DNA from: a virus
Length of the DNA stretch: 64,000 nt
IMG/VR virus record: IMGVR_UViG_3300034283_001603
Coordinates: 1 to 64,000 of that record
Strand: one strand, 5' to 3'
Position numbers and translations under genes: made by a program. Every line of letters begins with the position of its first letter. The stretch's first letter is position 1. A model generated the notes under the pieces. It was given only the letters and a program-made list of their open reading frames with translations. It was not told the DNA's origin and made no database searches. Of this stretch, positions 1,151 through 9,442 are shown piece after piece.

Positions 1151-1792
1151 TTGTTCCCAGGACTTTGGGTTTATAGAAATGTAATTACTCCAGAAATGGA
1201 TATAATCAACAGGCTTGAAAGTGCAATACTTGATTCTAAAGGAATGCATACTTGGAAAGAAGCAACCGTCGGATATAGAGAAAAAATGCCTGACTATAGA
1301 GACTGTGTAGACTTTAAATGGAAAAAATTTGAAAACCATATTCCTGATAAATACAATCAAGAAGTAGATGCAATTTGGCAAGATGTTTATGATGCACAGG
1401 CAATTGCATTAAATGATTATTCTTCTTTTTACAATATTGAATTAAAATATTGGGAAGCAATGAATTTTATTAAATATGGAGAAGGTCAACATTTCTCTTA
1501 TCATTCAGATCATGGTTGGTCATATATATCAACAGTATCAATGGTTGCTTATATTAATGATGATTATGAAGAAGGCGGATTAAGATTTGATAAACTGGAT
1601 TTAACTATTAAGCCAAAGGCTGGAGATCTGTATATATTCCCATCTACATATTTGTTCTCTCATGCCGCCCTTCCAGTAAAATCTGGACTAAAATATTCAA
1701 TTGTTACTATGACAGATTATAACGATGCAACTCATACAGAGTCTTTTTATAGACAGTTTATGTCTGATAAATCAATGAAAGATGGGTACTGA
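1151..1792 (+). CDS. 2OG-Fe(II) oxygenase, prolyl-4-hydroxylase type (copy 1)
   Basis: A 213-residue oxygenase that should hydroxylate a protein side chain using 2-oxoglutarate, O2 and Fe(II). The iron triad is visible: His118-x-Asp120 (YHSDH) and distal His171 (FSHAA). Lys181, ten residues after the distal His (PVKSGLKY), fits the lysine that binds the 2-oxoglutarate carboxylate in prolyl 4-hydroxylases. The family marker YINDDYEEGGLRF and KPKAGDLYIFPS lie between them. The start is TTG 1151, eight bases after the preceding stop, behind AAAGAAG; ATG 1199 would remove a conserved N-terminal strand. It is the first of seven tandem paralogues. Confidence 0.88.
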   Translation: MFPGLWVYRNVITPEMDIINRLESAILDSKGMHTWKEATVGYREKMPDYRDCVDFKWKKFENHIPDKYNQEVDAIWQDVYDAQAIALNDYSSFYNIELKYWEAMNFIKYGEGQHFSYHSDHGWSYISTVSMVAYINDDYEEGGLRFDKLDLTIKPKAGDLYIFPSTYLFSHAALPVKSGLKYSIVTMTDYNDATHTESFYRQFMSDKSMKDGY

Positions 1793-2526
1793 TGAACTTT
1801 GATGTATACAAAGTTTATCCAAATCAATCAGCAGATATTCAGCCTCTAGGAGTAAAAAGAGAATGGATGGATGAAACATCTGATAAGCATGCCTATCATT
1901 GTTTTCCAGTAAGCCTTTCAAATACCTTGGGATGGGGAGTTTCTTTTCCAGTAGATATTGAATTTATTTGGGACGGCATATCAGATTCAACAGACACTCA
2001 CGTTAAAGTTTTAAAAGGTAAGGATTACGTTTCAACATCAAGAGCCAATGCAACAATTAGCTTTAATACAAATTTAGTTATAAAAACTGAAGAAAATGTA
2101 AGCATGCTAGCAATGCCAACACCAAACTGGCCAATAGATGGTGTTTGGCCTTTTACAACACTAATAAGCACTTCGTTTTTTAAAGGCACTTTTCCAATTG
2201 CATGGAGAATAACAAAGGCCAATGAAGTTATTACTATTCCAGCAAATACTCCAGTTGCATCAATTATCCCAATATCTTTATCTAATTTAAACAATTCAGT
2301 AGCAACAATAAAAGGATATAAGGATTTACCAATAGATTTTTTTCCAAAAGAAGACTATGGCAAAATTGTTAGCGATATTAATAAATCTGGAAAGTGGACT
2401 GATTTTTACAGAAATGCTGTAGACCATAAAAACAATAAAATAGGATCTCATGAAGTAAAATCGTTACGATTAAAAAATGATGAAACTTCTTTAACTGGAC
2501 CAGAAGGCTGTGGAATACCCCAATGA
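1792..2526 (+). CDS. DUF6065-like protein
   Basis: A 244-residue soluble protein resembling the uncharacterised DUF6065 family: the segment around residues 24-60 (REWMDET, then FPVSLSNTLGWGVSFP) and the late IPANTPVASIIP motif are typical. The next gene has a similar IIPFKREDW-type motif (PAGTPYLQIIP), so the two look like distant relatives. The ATG overlaps the previous stop, placing it in the oxygenase operon. Members of this group often lie near oxygenase or capsule-like modification genes, but no activity is known. No catalytic residues can be assigned. Confidence 0.6.
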   Translation: MNFDVYKVYPNQSADIQPLGVKREWMDETSDKHAYHCFPVSLSNTLGWGVSFPVDIEFIWDGISDSTDTHVKVLKGKDYVSTSRANATISFNTNLVIKTEENVSMLAMPTPNWPIDGVWPFTTLISTSFFKGTFPIAWRITKANEVITIPANTPVASIIPISLSNLNNSVATIKGYKDLPIDFFPKEDYGKIVSDINKSGKWTDFYRNAVDHKNNKIGSHEVKSLRLKNDETSLTGPEGCGIPQ

Positions 2527-3242
2527 ACAAAATAATATTTCATTCAAACAAGCATTACAATGATGTCGAAACCGCTCCATGCCCAGCTGCAAGAGTTATT
2601 CCTAAGTGGTGGCAAGATGCTGACATATATATAAAAGATTTTTATGGGAATCCAGTTTCTAATGCAAATAAAGACGGCGGCAAAATGCTAAACTTTAAAG
2701 CATGTCCAGCCATGCTAGATACATTTACATCTGGATATACACTTGTAACCCCATGCGACATAGAATTTTATGAAAAAAACAATAGGATAAAAGCAAAGGT
2801 GCCTTTAAAATTTGATGATTTTGTAGGAGAAAGACCAGAGTCTACTGGATTTCAAGTTCCTCCTGGTTATGAAAAAAATCATTTTCATTGGTATGCCAAT
2901 TGGGCTCCACAGCTTCCAGAAGGATATAGCTCCTTATACATACAGCCGATAAATCATTTTGACTTACCTTGGCTTACAGTCGGTGGTATAATAGACAGTG
3001 ATAAGGTTACAACATCTGGATTAATACCATTTTTTATAAAAAATGGATTTGCTGGGATTGTACCTGCAGGAACACCATATTTGCAGATAATACCATTTAA
3101 AAGGGAAGACTGGGAATCAGAGTTGATATTTCATAAGCCAATTGATATTATGCAAAAAGCAATGGAAACATCAGAAATTTTTAGAACACCAGAAGGTGGA
3201 GTCTATAAAAAAAGATTTTGGACAAGAAGGAAGTATAAATAA
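2523..3242 (+). CDS. Conserved phage protein, DUF6065-related
   Basis: This 239-residue protein begins with PCPAARVIPKWWQDA and contains KACPAMLDTFTSGYTLVTP around residues 60-80, a pattern I associate with uncharacterised proteins of cyanophages and other large marine phages (IPKWW, K-C-P, D, GY, P-D). The late motif PAGTPYLQIIPFKREDW links it to the upstream DUF6065-like gene. ATGA overlaps with its neighbour indicate translational coupling. There is no HxD metal motif, so it is not another oxygenase. The function is unknown; a binding or scaffolding partner for the oxygenases is only a guess. Confidence 0.6.
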   Translation: MNKIIFHSNKHYNDVETAPCPAARVIPKWWQDADIYIKDFYGNPVSNANKDGGKMLNFKACPAMLDTFTSGYTLVTPCDIEFYEKNNRIKAKVPLKFDDFVGERPESTGFQVPPGYEKNHFHWYANWAPQLPEGYSSLYIQPINHFDLPWLTVGGIIDSDKVTTSGLIPFFIKNGFAGIVPAGTPYLQIIPFKREDWESELIFHKPIDIMQKAMETSEIFRTPEGGVYKKRFWTRRKYK

Positions 3243-3243
3243 T

Positions 3244-3933
3244 ATGGAACAAAGATTAAATACTAATAACACTCATGACTACAGATCTCTAGGGTCCATA
3301 ACACCATCTGGCTTTTTTGGCACAGGTCCAGAAAATATTGTAGAGCTAAAAAACTTTTTAACAGACCAAGAAAGAACAAGACTCACCAACTTTGCAAAAA
3401 CCAATAAAACATGGGATATTACTGATTCTCACGTAAATGAAAATGGTACAGTAATCTATGATGCAAACGCATGGTTCGATAGAGTTTGCACACGTAAATC
3501 TATGGAAATTTCCGCAGATCCAGATATTGTATATGTTGTTGATAATCTTATATCAAGACTGCAAGTAGAGGTAGAAAAGTTTTTTAATGTAAAGGTTCAG
3601 GCTACAGGACCAGCAATTGTTAGATGGCCTGTAGGATCAAGACAAGATCCTCATGCAGACAAAGAGCTGCATGAAGGCCCAGACGCAGGTACACCTAATG
3701 ATTTTCCTCATTACGATATCGCTTCATTATTTTATTTTAACGATGATTACGAAGGAGGAGAATTGTTTTTCCCTGTTCAAGGAATAGAATTTAAACCCGT
3801 TGGCGGATCAGCATACTTTTTCCCAGGTGATAAAGGTTATATTCACGGAGTTAGACCAATTATTTCTGGAGGAAGATATACGTCACCATTCTTTTGGCAG
3901 ATACTTGAGCATACTGGTGATATAAAGCCATGA
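3244..3933 (+). CDS. 2OG-Fe(II) oxygenase, prolyl-4-hydroxylase type (copy 2)
   Basis: A 229-residue oxygenase with His137-x-Asp139 (PHADKE), distal His201 (YIHGV) and Arg211 ten residues later (SGGRYTSPFFW) for 2-oxoglutarate binding. The core strand reads FYFNDDYEGGELFFP. An acidic loop of about 15 residues follows the HxD motif. I chose ATG 3244, two bases after the upstream stop; a frame continuing upstream to 3142 only reads through the end of the previous gene. It is one of the canonical P4H-like copies and overlaps the next gene as ATGA. Confidence 0.87.
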   Translation: MEQRLNTNNTHDYRSLGSITPSGFFGTGPENIVELKNFLTDQERTRLTNFAKTNKTWDITDSHVNENGTVIYDANAWFDRVCTRKSMEISADPDIVYVVDNLISRLQVEVEKFFNVKVQATGPAIVRWPVGSRQDPHADKELHEGPDAGTPNDFPHYDIASLFYFNDDYEGGELFFPVQGIEFKPVGGSAYFFPGDKGYIHGVRPIISGGRYTSPFFWQILEHTGDIKP

Positions 3934-4784
3934 CACTTAAATATAGAGAGATATACCCAAAAATATGGGTATTCAAAAATCCCTGGAAAGATATTGATTT
4001 GTTAACAAAAACAATTATGGATTCTGAAAAGAACCCAGAAGGATCTGCTTTAAATTGGCATGGTTGGTATACTTTTGGCAAAGAGGCGGATCAGTTTGAC
4101 AACTCTGTTGAATCTTCTGAAAGAACATCACTAGAAAGACTTTGCTGGGAAGAGCTAATTGAAGTATTTGATAAAACAACAAATCAGTATGCAGAAACAT
4201 TTGGTGTACCAATTGATCGTGATGCTGAAGTTTTTAATGAAGAAGAAGGATCTCTAACTCAACTATGGAAAAGAATGGGTCCTTCTATATGCAAGTATGA
4301 AGTTGAAGGCGGTATAGAAGAGTCCGATCTCGCTATGCATGTACACACAGACTATCAGAGAGATTATCATGACTTTAGAGGATACAAGTTTACATTTACA
4401 TGTACAATGTATTTAAATGGAGATTACGAAGGCGGTGGCCTGACATTCTTGGTAGACAACAAAACATTCTATTACAAGCCAGAAAAGGGTGATGTACTTT
4501 TGTTCCCAGCAGGAGACCCAGATTTCCTTTCTGATGCTGGTCAATTCTATATGCATGGAGTTGAAAAGGTAAAGGGCACACCTAAATATTTTGTAAGAAA
4601 TCATTGGGTAAGATTTTATCCTGGCTCGAAAGAATGGCTAGAAAACGAAAAGCTTTATGGTAAAGAGATATGGAAAGAAATGGAAATTGCCAGAACTAAA
4701 GAAGAAAGAAAGTCTGGAGCTTATCAAACAATAAACTATGATGAACTTAAAAAGCTAGAAAGGATTAATTTAAATGACATTTAA
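3930..4784 (+). CDS. 2OG-Fe(II) oxygenase, prolyl-4-hydroxylase type (copy 3)
   Basis: The largest of the set at 284 residues. Metal ligands are His139-x-Asp141 (HVHTDYQ) and distal His209 (YMHGVEKV), with Lys219 (GTPKYFV) ten residues on for 2-oxoglutarate. The core is MYLNGDYEGGGLTF. It has a charged C-terminal extension of about 50 residues (WLENEKLYGKEIWKEME) absent from most siblings, possibly for partner binding. The start overlaps the preceding stop as ATGA and the stop overlaps the next start by 11 bases. Confidence 0.87.
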   Translation: MTLKYREIYPKIWVFKNPWKDIDLLTKTIMDSEKNPEGSALNWHGWYTFGKEADQFDNSVESSERTSLERLCWEELIEVFDKTTNQYAETFGVPIDRDAEVFNEEEGSLTQLWKRMGPSICKYEVEGGIEESDLAMHVHTDYQRDYHDFRGYKFTFTCTMYLNGDYEGGGLTFLVDNKTFYYKPEKGDVLLFPAGDPDFLSDAGQFYMHGVEKVKGTPKYFVRNHWVRFYPGSKEWLENEKLYGKEIWKEMEIARTKEERKSGAYQTINYDELKKLERINLNDI

Positions 4785-5526
4785 TTTAGAAAATCAAAAT
4801 AGAATTAAAGAAGACATAGTGTTTTTTGAAAACTTTCTTAGTCCAGAAGATTGCGAAAAAGTTATTAAATACTGGGAACATTCTGTAGAAAAAGGAACTC
4901 TTCCGTGGGCACCAATATCATTTTATGACTCATTTGCATCTAACTTGCCAGACGATGAAGATAAAGAAAAGTTTGGTTTATCGCCTGATTTTTTTATTAC
5001 ACTTCAAGATAAAATACAGGAAGCTACAGAGATATGTAGAGGTGATAAAGTTAGACTAGTTAGCTATCATGCACAAAAATGGGTAGAGGGAGCATACGCT
5101 GGTTATCATTCAGACAATACACCAATAGACTCACCAGAGTATAATTCTTTTGAAAGAAGCAAGTGGGCAGCATTTCTTTATTTAAATGATGATTTTGAAG
5201 GTGGCGTTTTAAACTTTAGAGATCATGATATTTCTTTGCAGCCAAAAACTGGAATGCTAGCAGCATTTGCTGGAGGTCATCACAATATACATGAAGTACA
5301 AATGATTACTAAAGGAACAAGAATAACTATAGGATCATTTTGGGATAATGAAGAGGCTGTTTATAGCGAAGAAAAGCAGGCTATGTGGGAAACCGATATA
5401 GCAGATCAAAGAAAAAGACAGGCAGAGGACGCAGAGCTTTGGGCAGAACTTAAAGCAAGAGGTGAAAGACTAAAGCCTGGACCAGATCAAACTGCTAAAA
5501 AAGAAGTAGCATTGGAGATAGAATGA
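4774..5526 (+). CDS. 2OG-Fe(II) oxygenase, prolyl-4-hydroxylase type (copy 4)
   Basis: A 250-residue oxygenase beginning directly with the family N-terminal strand (IVFFENFLSPEDCEKVI). Ligands are His112-x-Asp114 (GYHSDNT), distal His173 (NIHEVQM) and Arg183 (GTRITIGSFW). The core is YLNDDFEGGVLNF. The last 45 residues are highly charged and probably helical (EKQAMWETDIADQRKRQAED). It is the copy most like standalone bacterial/viral prolyl 4-hydroxylases in layout. ATG 4774 lies inside the previous gene; the stop overlaps the next ATG. Confidence 0.88.
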   Translation: MTFNLENQNRIKEDIVFFENFLSPEDCEKVIKYWEHSVEKGTLPWAPISFYDSFASNLPDDEDKEKFGLSPDFFITLQDKIQEATEICRGDKVRLVSYHAQKWVEGAYAGYHSDNTPIDSPEYNSFERSKWAAFLYLNDDFEGGVLNFRDHDISLQPKTGMLAAFAGGHHNIHEVQMITKGTRITIGSFWDNEEAVYSEEKQAMWETDIADQRKRQAEDAELWAELKARGERLKPGPDQTAKKEVALEIE

Positions 5527-6332
5527 TAAAAACGACTGTATTAGAAAACGGAATGATTAGAGAAGAGCTTCACCCGCAAGTTTATTATTATAGAAATGCT
5601 ATTCCTAATGTAAAAGAATGGCTAGATCTTGTAAATGATTCTGAAAATAATCCTGATATATACCCTGTATTAACACCGTGGAATCAGTGGGATGTAGACG
5701 AAAACAGATCTATGGGGCACCCATATGTTTATGGATATAAAAAATTATGTTTATTAAATAATGTATATAACATAGATAAAGACGTTTCTGAAGAAACAAA
5801 AGAAATGTTTATTAAAATAAGAGACCCATTATTTAATGCCATAAGATATGTATGTGAAGATTATAAAAAAGAACAAGGCATAGATAAAGAACTTACCCTA
5901 TTAGAACAGTTTGGTGTTCATAGATATAGGGCTGGCAACTATATGGGAGTTCATCACGACTCTCAAGAAGGTGACACAAGGCTTCTTTATTCTTTAGTAG
6001 TTTGGCCAAATGATGACTATGAAGGCGGAGAGCTTTCTTTTTCTATAAAAGAAGGAGTTTTGACTGCCACAGAACTTTCTTTGCAGGGTGACCTTATGCA
6101 TCCTGCTAATGAGGGATTGTACGACTTCTATATTAAACCAGAAGCTGGTAGCATAGTTATATTCCCATCACCCTCACCATTTAGTCATACAGCGCATGAA
6201 GTAAAATCAGGATGGAAATACATGCTTCCGATGTTTTGGATAGATCCAACTGGAGAAGATGTTTTGTTTAAGCAAGATCCCAATTGGGAGCCAGAGTTTG
6301 TTTACCCAGATAAAGAAGATTTATTTAAGTAA
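5523..6332 (+). CDS. 2OG-Fe(II) oxygenase, prolyl-4-hydroxylase type (copy 5)
   Basis: A 269-residue oxygenase. Metal ligands are His144-x-Asp146 in GVHHDSQEGD and distal His222 in FSHTAHEV; Lys232 (SGWKYML) follows by ten residues. The core WPNDDYEGGELSF is followed by an insertion of about 25 residues (EGVLTATELSLQGDLMHP) shared only with copy 6, so copies 5 and 6 are a recent duplication pair. It ends the first transcription segment of the cluster: a promoter-like element starts eight bases past its stop. Confidence 0.88.
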   Translation: MIKTTVLENGMIREELHPQVYYYRNAIPNVKEWLDLVNDSENNPDIYPVLTPWNQWDVDENRSMGHPYVYGYKKLCLLNNVYNIDKDVSEETKEMFIKIRDPLFNAIRYVCEDYKKEQGIDKELTLLEQFGVHRYRAGNYMGVHHDSQEGDTRLLYSLVVWPNDDYEGGELSFSIKEGVLTATELSLQGDLMHPANEGLYDFYIKPEAGSIVIFPSPSPFSHTAHEVKSGWKYMLPMFWIDPTGEDVLFKQDPNWEPEFVYPDKEDLFK

Positions 6333-6339
6333 CAATATC

Positions 6340-6348
6340 TGGTACAAT
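6340..6348 (+). promoter_or_regulatory. Extended -10 promoter inside the oxygenase cluster
   Basis: TGGTACAAT, an extended -10, lies in the 45-base gap between oxygenase copies 5 and 6 and is followed by a strong RBS (AGGAGG, 6368-6373) and ATG 6378. No clear -35 is seen. Confidence 0.55.
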
Positions 6349-6377
6349 TATTACAAAAGTTATAAGTAGGAGGAAGT

Positions 6378-7094
6378 ATGAAAAGCGAAGAATTATTTGA
6401 TAAGGTGTATTACTACACTGATGTTATAAAGGAGCCTAAAAAGCTTGTTGATTTAATCGAATCAACAGAATCTGATAAATACTCAAGCTTCATCACCCCC
6501 TGGGAAGAGTGGGGTGCATGTAGTGGACAAATGTACATTTATGGATCACACAAAAGAATAAAGTGTTTGTCTTCTGAAGATATAGAAAAAAATATATCCG
6601 AAGATGTTATAGATGATTGCAACTATATTTTCAATGAGATATTTGATGGTATGAAAAATGTCTGTGAAGATTATGCTTCAAAAATCGGTGATGATGCTGA
6701 GATAATTTTAATGACAGATACAGCAATTAAAAAATACATGCCTGGAACTTTTATGGGATCCCACTTTGATCAGCAAGAGGGGGATAGAAGACTTAGGTAT
6801 TCTATGGTAATGTATTTAAATGATGATTACGAAGGCGGAGAAATATCTTTTAATGTAAAAGATGGAGTATTGACTTCTACAGATGATGCCGCTGCAGAAG
6901 ATTTTGATAGCCCACTTAATCATGATAGAATTATGTTTCACGTTAAGCCGAAGGCTGGAAGCGTAATAATCTTTCCTTCAACAGATCCATATAGTCATAC
7001 AGCACACCTTATAAAAGGCGGATCTAAATATATGGTTCCTTCGTTTTGGCTTAACACTGGTAAATTCGTAGATGGCGTTTTTATTCCAAACTAG
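6378..7094 (+). CDS. 2OG-Fe(II) oxygenase, prolyl-4-hydroxylase type (copy 6)
   Basis: A 238-residue oxygenase, closest to copy 5. Ligands are His129-x-Asp131 (GSHFDQQEGD), distal His207 (YSHTAHLI) and Lys217 (GGSKYMV). The core MYLNDDYEGGEISF is followed by the same insertion as copy 5 (DGVLTSTDDAAAED). It has the best ribosome binding site of the cluster (AGGAGG) and its own promoter-like element, so it may be made at a different time or level from copies 1-5. Confidence 0.88.
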   Translation: MKSEELFDKVYYYTDVIKEPKKLVDLIESTESDKYSSFITPWEEWGACSGQMYIYGSHKRIKCLSSEDIEKNISEDVIDDCNYIFNEIFDGMKNVCEDYASKIGDDAEIILMTDTAIKKYMPGTFMGSHFDQQEGDRRLRYSMVMYLNDDYEGGEISFNVKDGVLTSTDDAAAEDFDSPLNHDRIMFHVKPKAGSVIIFPSTDPYSHTAHLIKGGSKYMVPSFWLNTGKFVDGVFIPN

Positions 7095-7106: not shown

Positions 7107-7652
7107 ATGGCAATGTACGTTTTTCAAGAAATTGCACCAAAGACATTTTATTTTACATATTGTCTTCAAGAGATTGGGAATTATATAAGCTTCCTTGAAG
7201 AAAGCGAAAACAATACAACCAACTTAATTAGTAAGTGGCACGATACAGAATATGGTTATGAAAAAAGAATATCTTCTGATTTCTCAAATGAAACAGAAAC
7301 CGTAGATACTCGTAGTCTTTTTATAATTAATAATCTAAAAGCCACATTTCATCATTGCTTTAGTCAATATAGGCTGTTTAATAACATAGAAGAGCAGGTT
7401 AACTTAAGCACGAAGTACTTTGTAAGAAAGCATGATGAGGGCCAAGTAAAGAACAACTGCGGGGCAAATGGAAAGTATACGGCCAGAATGTACATTAATG
7501 ATTCTTTTTCAAATGGAGAGATTTTAATACCTGGAAAGCCTAAGTTTAAGCCTGAAGCGGGCAGCATAATTATAGCCCCATCAGAAATGCAGGTATCTGC
7601 AGATCCAGCTTATGGTAATTCTAGATACATTGCAATAGGTCATTGGGTTTAA
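7107..7652 (+). CDS. Degenerate 2OG oxygenase-like protein (copy 7, catalytic residues lost)
   Basis: A 181-residue protein aligning with the C-terminal half of its neighbours: RMYINDSFSNGEILI matches YLNDDYEGGEISF, FKPEAGSIIIAPS matches KPKAGSVIIFPS, and GNSRYIAIGHW matches GSKYMVPSFW. The HxD site is replaced by VRKHDEGQ without correct spacing and the distal SHTAH is replaced by VSADP, so no iron site can form; the 2OG-binding Arg (NSRY) survives. The N-terminal region is also shorter. The frame is intact with a start behind GAAAGAG, so it is likely a functional non-catalytic paralogue (binding or regulatory subunit) rather than a fresh pseudogene. Confidence 0.7.
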   Translation: MAMYVFQEIAPKTFYFTYCLQEIGNYISFLEESENNTTNLISKWHDTEYGYEKRISSDFSNETETVDTRSLFIINNLKATFHHCFSQYRLFNNIEEQVNLSTKYFVRKHDEGQVKNNCGANGKYTARMYINDSFSNGEILIPGKPKFKPEAGSIIIAPSEMQVSADPAYGNSRYIAIGHWV

Positions 7653-7678: not shown

Positions 7679-9442
7679 ATGTCCTACTACCTTGATGTAA
7701 TAAAAGATTCTCCTACTGGCTTATGGAAGCTAGATGAGACATCTGGGTCTGTAGCCTATGATAGTTCTGGATGTGGAAATAACGGATCGTATGTAGGTGG
7801 AATTGGAATATCTGGAATGCCAATAGTTGATGGTGGCACACACACAAATAAAATAGATAGCTCTAAATCAATACAGTTTGCTATTTCAAAAGATTTTTCT
7901 GGCACCACTGGTACTGGAGGATTTGCAACCGTTTCAACCTCTGATAAAGATTTTACCCTCGAGGCATGGTTTCATCCAAAAACATTAACATCAGTAACTC
8001 CAATATTTGCAGATTCTGACGGCATTGGTTTGTATTGGGATAATGGCAATGTAGTGTTTAAATTAGAAAATGAAAGAGTTGATTACTCTGTTCCTAATTC
8101 AAATAGAGTAATTCATGTTGTTGGTGTATATTCAGTAGACTCAATGAGTTTGTATGTAGACGGATTGCTAGTTGCAAATAAGACGATATCAATATCTTTT
8201 ACAAACACAAGCATAACCTTGTCATGTGGCCCAGCCACAGGAGATCAATATTTTTTAATTGATTGCCCAGCGGTTTATAGATATGCTCTTTCTGCAAATT
8301 CAATATTATCTCACTACAATAATTTATTTTTAATTAATGATGAGCAAATCCCAGGACCAGATCTGGGAGAGCTATTTAGGGGCGCAGAAAGATATCAAGA
8401 TATAAAGACCAGATATGTTTATCCCGTTCAAATATTATGGAAAGATCTTATATACGACAATGAGGCATTGGCTTACAACTCAATTAACAATAGTTTGTAT
8501 TTAAATTCAGGATTTACTACTGGAGAATTTGTAGAAGATTTAGTATTAAATATTACAAATGAATATGTATCTTCAAAAATAGAATGGATGGCATCAAAAG
8601 GGGTTTCGGTATATGTATCAGAAACATCCGAGACTGGCCCATGGACTATATGTGTAAATGGATCATCTATACCAGGATTTACACAGGGCTCTAGCTTTTC
8701 TTCACAAAAAATATTGTATTTTAAAGTAGTTTTTTCATCAACTAATTCAGACAGATACATTCCAGAGCTATATTATTTAAAAATTTATTTTCATTCTGAA
8801 AAGAAAATGTTTTCTCACAACGGTAGCGGCATCTTGTCTACATCACAGCCCACTACTGGAACTATCTGGGATTTTGACATATCAAATAATAAATATCCAG
8901 TTAGAACTAGAAATTATGATAATGGAATAAGACCAAAGTCTTCAGCATTTTTTATAAACTCATCAAATGATGTTAGAAATATTGAAATGATATTTACTCC
9001 AAAATCATTGTCTAGCGGACATTTGATATTCAACAAACCTGGATCTACAGAGACCTCACTCTCCTGGGCGGCAGGCGGGGTGATATCAAAATCCAACATT
9101 AGTAATATCTATATAAATGGGCAAGATGCATCTTCAGCAACAAACATATCCTCATACTTATATATAGATGAGCCCAATTATATACTTATAAAAACAGATT
9201 CTGTAATAAGTGGACAAATTTGGTTTAACGGAAAGCAACTATTAGGAGTGAGATCTGGTGTGCTTGATGATAACCTTTATCAGAATATTGCCCTATACTC
9301 AGACCCATTAGTTAGCCACCAGGAGCATTATGACCTTTACACAGGCAAAACTTTATCTGTTGGGAGGGGTTCGTCAATGAGCATGACAGAAGACTCAGTC
9401 TCAACCTACTCTAGAGACAGGGTTGTGTTCCAGATTATATAA
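7679..9442 (+). CDS. LamG/concanavalin-like minor structural protein
   Basis: A 587-residue protein whose first 220 residues form a LamG jelly-roll: DSPTGLWKLDETSG and YDSSGCGNNGSYVGG at the start, FTLEAWFHPKT in the middle and a late YVDGLLVANKT are classic signatures of sugar-binding phage and cell-surface domains. A second beta-rich half (residues about 370-560) has similar elements (FINSSNDVRNIEMIFTPKS, IWFNGKQLLG), suggesting a second, diverged jelly-roll. No signal peptide. It likely decorates the virion or tail and binds glycans. It is expressed from its own leaderless-type promoter. Confidence 0.8.
   Translation: MSYYLDVIKDSPTGLWKLDETSGSVAYDSSGCGNNGSYVGGIGISGMPIVDGGTHTNKIDSSKSIQFAISKDFSGTTGTGGFATVSTSDKDFTLEAWFHPKTLTSVTPIFADSDGIGLYWDNGNVVFKLENERVDYSVPNSNRVIHVVGVYSVDSMSLYVDGLLVANKTISISFTNTSITLSCGPATGDQYFLIDCPAVYRYALSANSILSHYNNLFLINDEQIPGPDLGELFRGAERYQDIKTRYVYPVQILWKDLIYDNEALAYNSINNSLYLNSGFTTGEFVEDLVLNITNEYVSSKIEWMASKGVSVYVSETSETGPWTICVNGSSIPGFTQGSSFSSQKILYFKVVFSSTNSDRYIPELYYLKIYFHSEKKMFSHNGSGILSTSQPTTGTIWDFDISNNKYPVRTRNYDNGIRPKSSAFFINSSNDVRNIEMIFTPKSLSSGHLIFNKPGSTETSLSWAAGGVISKSNISNIYINGQDASSATNISSYLYIDEPNYILIKTDSVISGQIWFNGKQLLGVRSGVLDDNLYQNIALYSDPLVSHQEHYDLYTGKTLSVGRGSSMSMTEDSVSTYSRDRVVFQII

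Follow-up and report, generated by a model that had tools for sequence, protein, structure and literature searches.

The window, by which we mean the whole 64,000-nucleotide stretch analysed here, belongs to a virus record of 91,959 bases. Near its start lies an array of 2OG oxygenase genes, which runs into a related gene lacking the catalytic residues and then into a LamG gene and the portal gene:

1151..1792, + strand: active 2OG oxygenase, copy 1 (Pfam match, triad kept)
3238..3933, + strand: active 2OG oxygenase, copy 2 (Pfam match, triad kept); the longest ORF opens at 3142
3930..4784, + strand: active 2OG oxygenase, copy 3 (Pfam match, triad kept)
4774..5526, + strand: active 2OG oxygenase, copy 4 (Pfam match, triad kept)
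5523..6332, + strand: active 2OG oxygenase, copy 5 (Pfam match, triad kept)
6378..7094, + strand: active 2OG oxygenase, copy 6 (Pfam match, triad kept), adjoining the triad-less gene and its proposed partner
7107..7652, + strand: putative pseudo-oxygenase gene, 181 aa (ORF, intact orthologues, AlphaFold model, fold match)
7679..9442, + strand: Laminin_G_3 (concanavalin-like) protein, here LamG, the constant downstream neighbour, followed by the portal gene (Pfam, locus comparison)

The six oxygenases (starting at 1151, 3238, 3930, 4774, 5523 and 6378) all exceed the Pfam 2OG-FeII_Oxy_3 cut-off. Those at 3238-7094 also match phrog_2297, phrog_274 ('DNA endonuclease (V)') and phrog_3531 ('ferrochelatase'), labels that look wrong, and copy 6 (6378-7094) has a sub-threshold match (E 9e-5) to Pfam Pox_C4_C10, the poxvirus family to which the dead PHD2-like protein C16 belongs. 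Positions 1792-3242 hold two tandem proteins of unknown function (DUF6065 / phrog_7084), which are found inside the oxygenase array in nearly all loci that we compared; the second of them is doubled in L046 and L050. The same phage record holds two further 2OG-oxygenase matches beyond the window, at 78695-78892 and 80036-80194, and a near-identical 106-kb relative (G006) has 12 such matches in all. The phages are presumably of freshwater origin, judging from where such arrays generally occur.

The gene at 7107-7652 is separated from copy 6 by 12 nt and forms an intact ORF of 181 aa with an ATG start and a TAA stop. The original prediction described it as an oxygenase that has lost the HxD pair and the distal His while keeping three core fold motifs in an open frame, and both halves of this description are borne out. 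YINDSFSNGE, FKPEAGSIII and NSRYIAIGHW are all present in the translation. In the alignment with active relatives the HxD site lies in a loop from which several residues have been lost and which reads KNNCGANG, and the site of the distal His is a 2-residue deletion. The HxD/E...H facial triad is absent from this protein and from every orthologue of its clade. The parts of the gene that matter for the argument are:

7107..7172, + strand: N-terminal hairpin, residues 1-22 (MAMYVFQEIAPKTFYFTYCLQE), with the highest conservation of any part and a candidate partner surface (identity comparison)
7308..7388, + strand: helix 2 region, residues 68-94 (TRSLFIINNLKATFHHCFSQYRLFNNI) (identity comparison; helix 68-91 in the model)
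7434..7472, + strand: residues 110-122, site of HxD in active relatives; shortened, hypervariable and without a ligand (alignment)
7584..7619, + strand: residues 160-171, site of the distal His in active relatives; His deleted (alignment)
7623..7625, + strand: Arg173, site of the Lys/Arg that anchors the 2OG C5-carboxylate in active relatives (alignment)

The protein has no match to a Pfam 2OG family above the gathering score, its only PHROG match is a weak one to PHROG 61 (E 0.0018), and its profile finds nothing significant among PDB sequences. Pairwise comparisons are more informative. BLASTP aligns it with copy 6 at E 2e-8, with copy 5 at E 2e-7 and with a short active paralogue from locus L048 at E 2e-19, and hhalign gives 99.3% against the active paralogues. 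The homology is significant, and on these alignments the gene shares descent with active 2OG oxygenases.

An AlphaFold2 model built from an alignment of 31 window and locus proteins has a pLDDT of 90.1 and a pTM of 0.86. Foldseek searches of the PDB with this model return 6n1f (3.3e-7), the mimivirus lysyl hydroxylase L230, PolD and PHD2, all of which are 2OG oxygenases. In BFVD the model is closest to a phage oxoglutarate/iron-dependent dioxygenase (TMq 0.84), and the active short paralogue of L048 has this same protein as its top match (TMq 0.92). Compared with the active model, a strand and a short helix at the HxD site and a short strand at the distal His are unassigned in the triad-less model. 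The predicted structure is thus the DSBH (jelly-roll) fold of 2OG oxygenases, as the original prediction had anticipated.

Orthologues were collected from IMG/VR in two scans, of which the first gave 43 loci and the second 4 more, making 47 in total. Three of these are cut by contig ends (L027, L043, L045); all other orthologues are complete frames of about 181-194 codons, down to 47% identity, and an internal stop or frameshift in the gene was found in none of the 47 loci, so that an intact frame by chance is excluded. The gene order oxygenase, triad-less gene, LamG, small gene, portal is the same in all loci, with an insert in L050 and L046. In these two loci a reverse-strand oxygenase resembling copy 1 lies beside the triad-less gene or the LamG gene (L050:7191-7775 and the region after LamG in L046), in clusters that are otherwise co-directional. 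HxD and the distal His are retained by all six active copies in these loci, apart from one copy 6, and the triad-less gene never has the triad. The exception, copy 6 of L034 (1610-2158), carries an in-frame internal deletion that shortens it to 549 bp from 717 and removes the KPxAGS motif and the distal His region; it lies directly upstream of an intact triad-less gene and reflects either a real deletion or an assembly error. No match to the triad-less protein was found among the isolated phages of INPHARED, and no relative among GTDB species genomes, which consequently give no host or prophage clue.

Selection was estimated by the Nei-Gojobori method from pairs with dS 0.05-1. The triad-less gene has a median dN/dS of 0.068 (IQR 0.059-0.080, maximum 0.13) over 68 pairs, which are not independent of each other. 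The corresponding values are 0.039-0.077 for the six active copies, 0.039 for portal and 0.127 for LamG. Purifying selection on the triad-less gene is as strong as on its active neighbours. Decay is excluded because dN/dS is some tenfold lower than 1 while synonymous distances are close to 1, and in close relatives the gene is neither frameshifted nor absent: the slot is conserved and the full-length orthologues are intact. We therefore hold with high confidence that the gene product has no triad-based 2OG-oxygenase activity and that purifying selection acts on it.

The distribution of constraint along the protein differs markedly from that in active sisters. We compared mean pairwise identities among 12 triad-less representatives with those among 11 active sisters; over the whole length these are similar, at 0.51 and 0.54, respectively. 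Residues 1-22 reach an identity of 0.86 in the triad-less proteins against 0.51 in the active sisters, and helix 2 (68-94) 0.68 against 0.45. The opposite holds for the HxD loop (110-122; 0.22 against 0.63) and for the distal-His loop (160-171; 0.24 against 0.69), where the His is missing from every triad-less member. The identities show that constraint, as read from the alignment, has shifted away from the ligand loops and towards the N-terminal hairpin and helix 2. Such a shift is what one would expect of an enzyme that has turned into a binding protein, and would agree with the non-catalytic role that was originally suggested and that is well supported by the intact, selected orthologues with a kept fold and no triad. 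Position 173, placed by alignment only, is Arg in 11 of the 12 triad-less representatives and Lys in the remaining one. Since this residue, the 2OG anchor of active relatives, is retained, a carboxylate ligand could still occupy the pocket.

The slot before LamG was also surveyed by anchoring on copy 4 as a neutral marker. The triad-less gene is present in all loci where copy 4 is at least 74% identical and the contig reaches the slot. Where copy 4 is at about 59-70%, the slot mostly holds an active oxygenase (L105, L140-L150, L155). The slot oxygenase of L105 begins MAMYEVQELAPKIFYFT, close to the N-terminal signature of the triad-less gene, and carries HADQ and YLHES; in L105 and L147, among others, the slot is held by an orthologue that has an intact triad and shares the N-terminus of the triad-less gene. 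In addition, the divergent loci L044, L046, L048 and L050 encode a short active oxygenase, OX7, which adjoins the triad-less gene on its upstream side or, in L046, lies one gene further up.

In the tree the triad-less genes form a clade with support 100/100. Together with OX7 and the active slot orthologues they make up a larger clade (95/93), apart from copies 5 and 6. A recent duplication of copy 5 or 6 is thereby ruled out, as the gene groups with the short slot oxygenases, and here the original prediction has to be amended: what it called an oxygenase copy, to be compared with copies 5 and 6, is not a duplicate of either but a separate, older paralogue. Taken together, survey and tree show the gene, in terms of sequence relationships, to be a descendant of or sister to triad-intact oxygenases still found in the same slot; a topology with the triad-less clade outside all active slot genes is not rejected by the AU test (p-AU 0.22). 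Inactivation probably took place inside this phage lineage, because the corresponding slot of sister phages holds an orthologue whose triad is intact and whose N-terminus is the same.

The deep triad-less members of L044, L046 and L048 have an HxE-like remnant (HKE, HNE and HTE) in the shortened loop and no distal His. This remnant may be a vestige of HxD. Since the distal His is gone from all triad-less members and such a remnant persists in three, the distal His was perhaps lost first. Because of these remnants, and because active single-ligand variants of 2OG oxygenases exist, the absence of activity can be asserted with less certainty for members beyond the clade to which the window's own gene belongs.

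Another copy without HxD and distal His lies at L152:6378-6920, where it overlaps the end of an active oxygenase. In the best tree it falls outside the window's triad-less clade, so that two losses are counted, and it possibly represents an independent second loss; a single origin of the L152 and window genes is not rejected (p-AU 0.40). A search with the L152 copy returned no further relatives. A contig-end fragment at L151:6618-6869 looks like a related copy.

Collagen-like G-x-y proteins resembling tail fibres directly follow the active slot oxygenase in L105 (3067-4047), L147 (7796) and L149 (7805), and are a possible hydroxylation substrate. No collagen-like repeat was found in the window's 92-kb record. 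We considered whether the triad-less gene is tied to loss of such a fibre and found no simple association: L140-L146 have the active gene and no fibre nearby, and L028 has the triad-less gene with a fibre present.

The mechanism that we consider most likely, though with no more than middling confidence, is that the protein is a non-catalytic subunit of a neighbouring active oxygenase. As a pseudo-oxygenase with the 2OG-Fe(II) fold, it would bind no iron through a triad and would have been kept for a binding role. Through the conserved face that comprises the N-terminal hairpin and helix 2, it would dock on the product of the next gene upstream, an active oxygenase (copy 6 in the window and the short active paralogue in L044, L048 and L050). 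In that position it might stabilize the enzyme, determine what the enzyme acts on or present a substrate to it. Given that the array adjoins the LamG and portal genes, a virion protein would be a plausible substrate.

The directly upstream neighbour of the triad-less gene is always a related oxygenase. In protein distances the gene co-varies best with copy 6, where rho reaches 0.71 over 19 haplotypes and 0.47 in the close set; for LamG, which is similarly near on the other side, rho in the close set is -0.08. At fourfold-degenerate sites rho is 0.30 with copy 6 and 0.34 with copy 4, which implies that the co-variation with copy 6 is partly linkage and that the excess is modest. As evidence for a partner the co-variation is therefore suggestive only, and together with the shift of constraint it may lend weak extra support to the subunit reading. 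The N-terminal hairpin could also be conserved as fold core, rather than as an interface. A single fixed partner is not implied, since the upstream active gene, copy 6 or OX7, differs between lineages. More generally, and tentatively, such arrays might encode hetero-oligomeric protein hydroxylases in which one tandem paralogue has become an obligatory subunit that provides specificity or a scaffold and has no catalytic role. The array's final slot would be prone to such inactivation, as the second triad-less copy, in L152, also follows an active paralogue.

Alternatively, the protein could act without an enzyme partner, as a stand-alone binding protein in which a dead DSBH fold serves as a small virion or assembly component, for example a LamG adaptor or chaperone. 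Its constant position directly before LamG and the portal and head genes would suit such a role, as would constraint on the N-terminal face and not on the pocket. The distances of the two proteins do not co-vary, however, LamG has twice the dN/dS of the triad-less gene, and the upstream neighbour is invariably an oxygenase relative, so we regard this explanation as unlikely. It is still less probable that the protein is a decoy or inhibitor of a host or competing oxygenase in the manner of C16, or a sensor that binds 2OG via Arg173 without turnover. The N-terminal domain of vaccinia C16 offers a precedent and Arg or Lys173 is kept in 12/12 representatives, but the loops that once held the ligands are free of constraint, there is no sign of a host target, and the position beside the portal and head genes suggests late expression. 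That the protein is still an enzyme, with an altered metal site or a different chemistry, appears very improbable. Such a reading could draw on the HxE-like motif of the three deep members and on active single-ligand 2OG oxygenase variants (PMC10947486), but the window's family has no conserved His, Asp or Glu at the former ligand positions, and the two ligand loops, both shortened, rank among the least conserved segments of the protein. A decaying pseudogene caught before disruption, or an artefact, could account for the lost catalytic residues and has a negligible chance of being correct given a dN/dS of ~0.07, synonymous distances of ~1, 47 loci with no broken frame and the same loss in all.

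Many 2OG oxygenases of unknown purpose are encoded by phages that infect aquatic bacteria, and they are usually classed as auxiliary metabolic genes. That one paralogue has lost catalysis and is still under selection argues that at least part of such an array works by protein-protein contacts, and offers a way of finding out which of the oxygenases work together, and on what. Intact-triad orthologues persist in the same slot of sister phages, which opens the change from enzyme to pseudoenzyme to direct study.

Several known systems can be compared with the protein described here. A limited literature search found nothing relevant on phage pseudoenzymes of the 2OG-oxygenase fold. Cyanophages, like the phage of the window, have several 2OG-FeII oxygenase genes per genome (PMC3037559). 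With the P4H/PHD-like members of the 2OG-Fe(II) superfamily (PF13640, PHROG 61) the protein shares the DSBH, a KPEAGS-type core motif and the 2OG-anchoring Arg/Lys; unlike them it has no Fe(II) ligands, its ligand loops are shortened and unconstrained, and it has no Pfam 2OG match. In a Phold structural survey both His ligands are highly conserved in phage EGLN3-like proteins (PMC12774648), whereas the triad-less protein has neither. The example of AspH shows that a 2OG oxygenase can stay active after losing one ligand (PMC10947486); those active variants have a single ligand, whereas the window protein retains none. The slot oxygenases of L105 and L147 and the OX7 protein of L048, encoded next to the slot, resemble the triad-less protein in length and fold, belong to the same clade and have a similar N-terminal signature (MAMY.QELAPKIFYFT in L105), but all three keep HAD and the distal His. 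The nearest precedent would be vaccinia C16, whose N-terminal domain is a dead PHD2-like fold that keeps the 2OG cleft without the cofactor residues, dimerizes and binds PHD2 (PMC9674614). The analogy extends to a viral PHD2-like 2OG-oxygenase fold lacking cofactor residues, also found in C4. The protein has no match to the Pfam family of C16 and C4, Pox_C4_C10, and C16 is a two-domain immune evasion protein of an animal virus, whereas the protein described here is a single-domain phage protein encoded in an oxygenase array.
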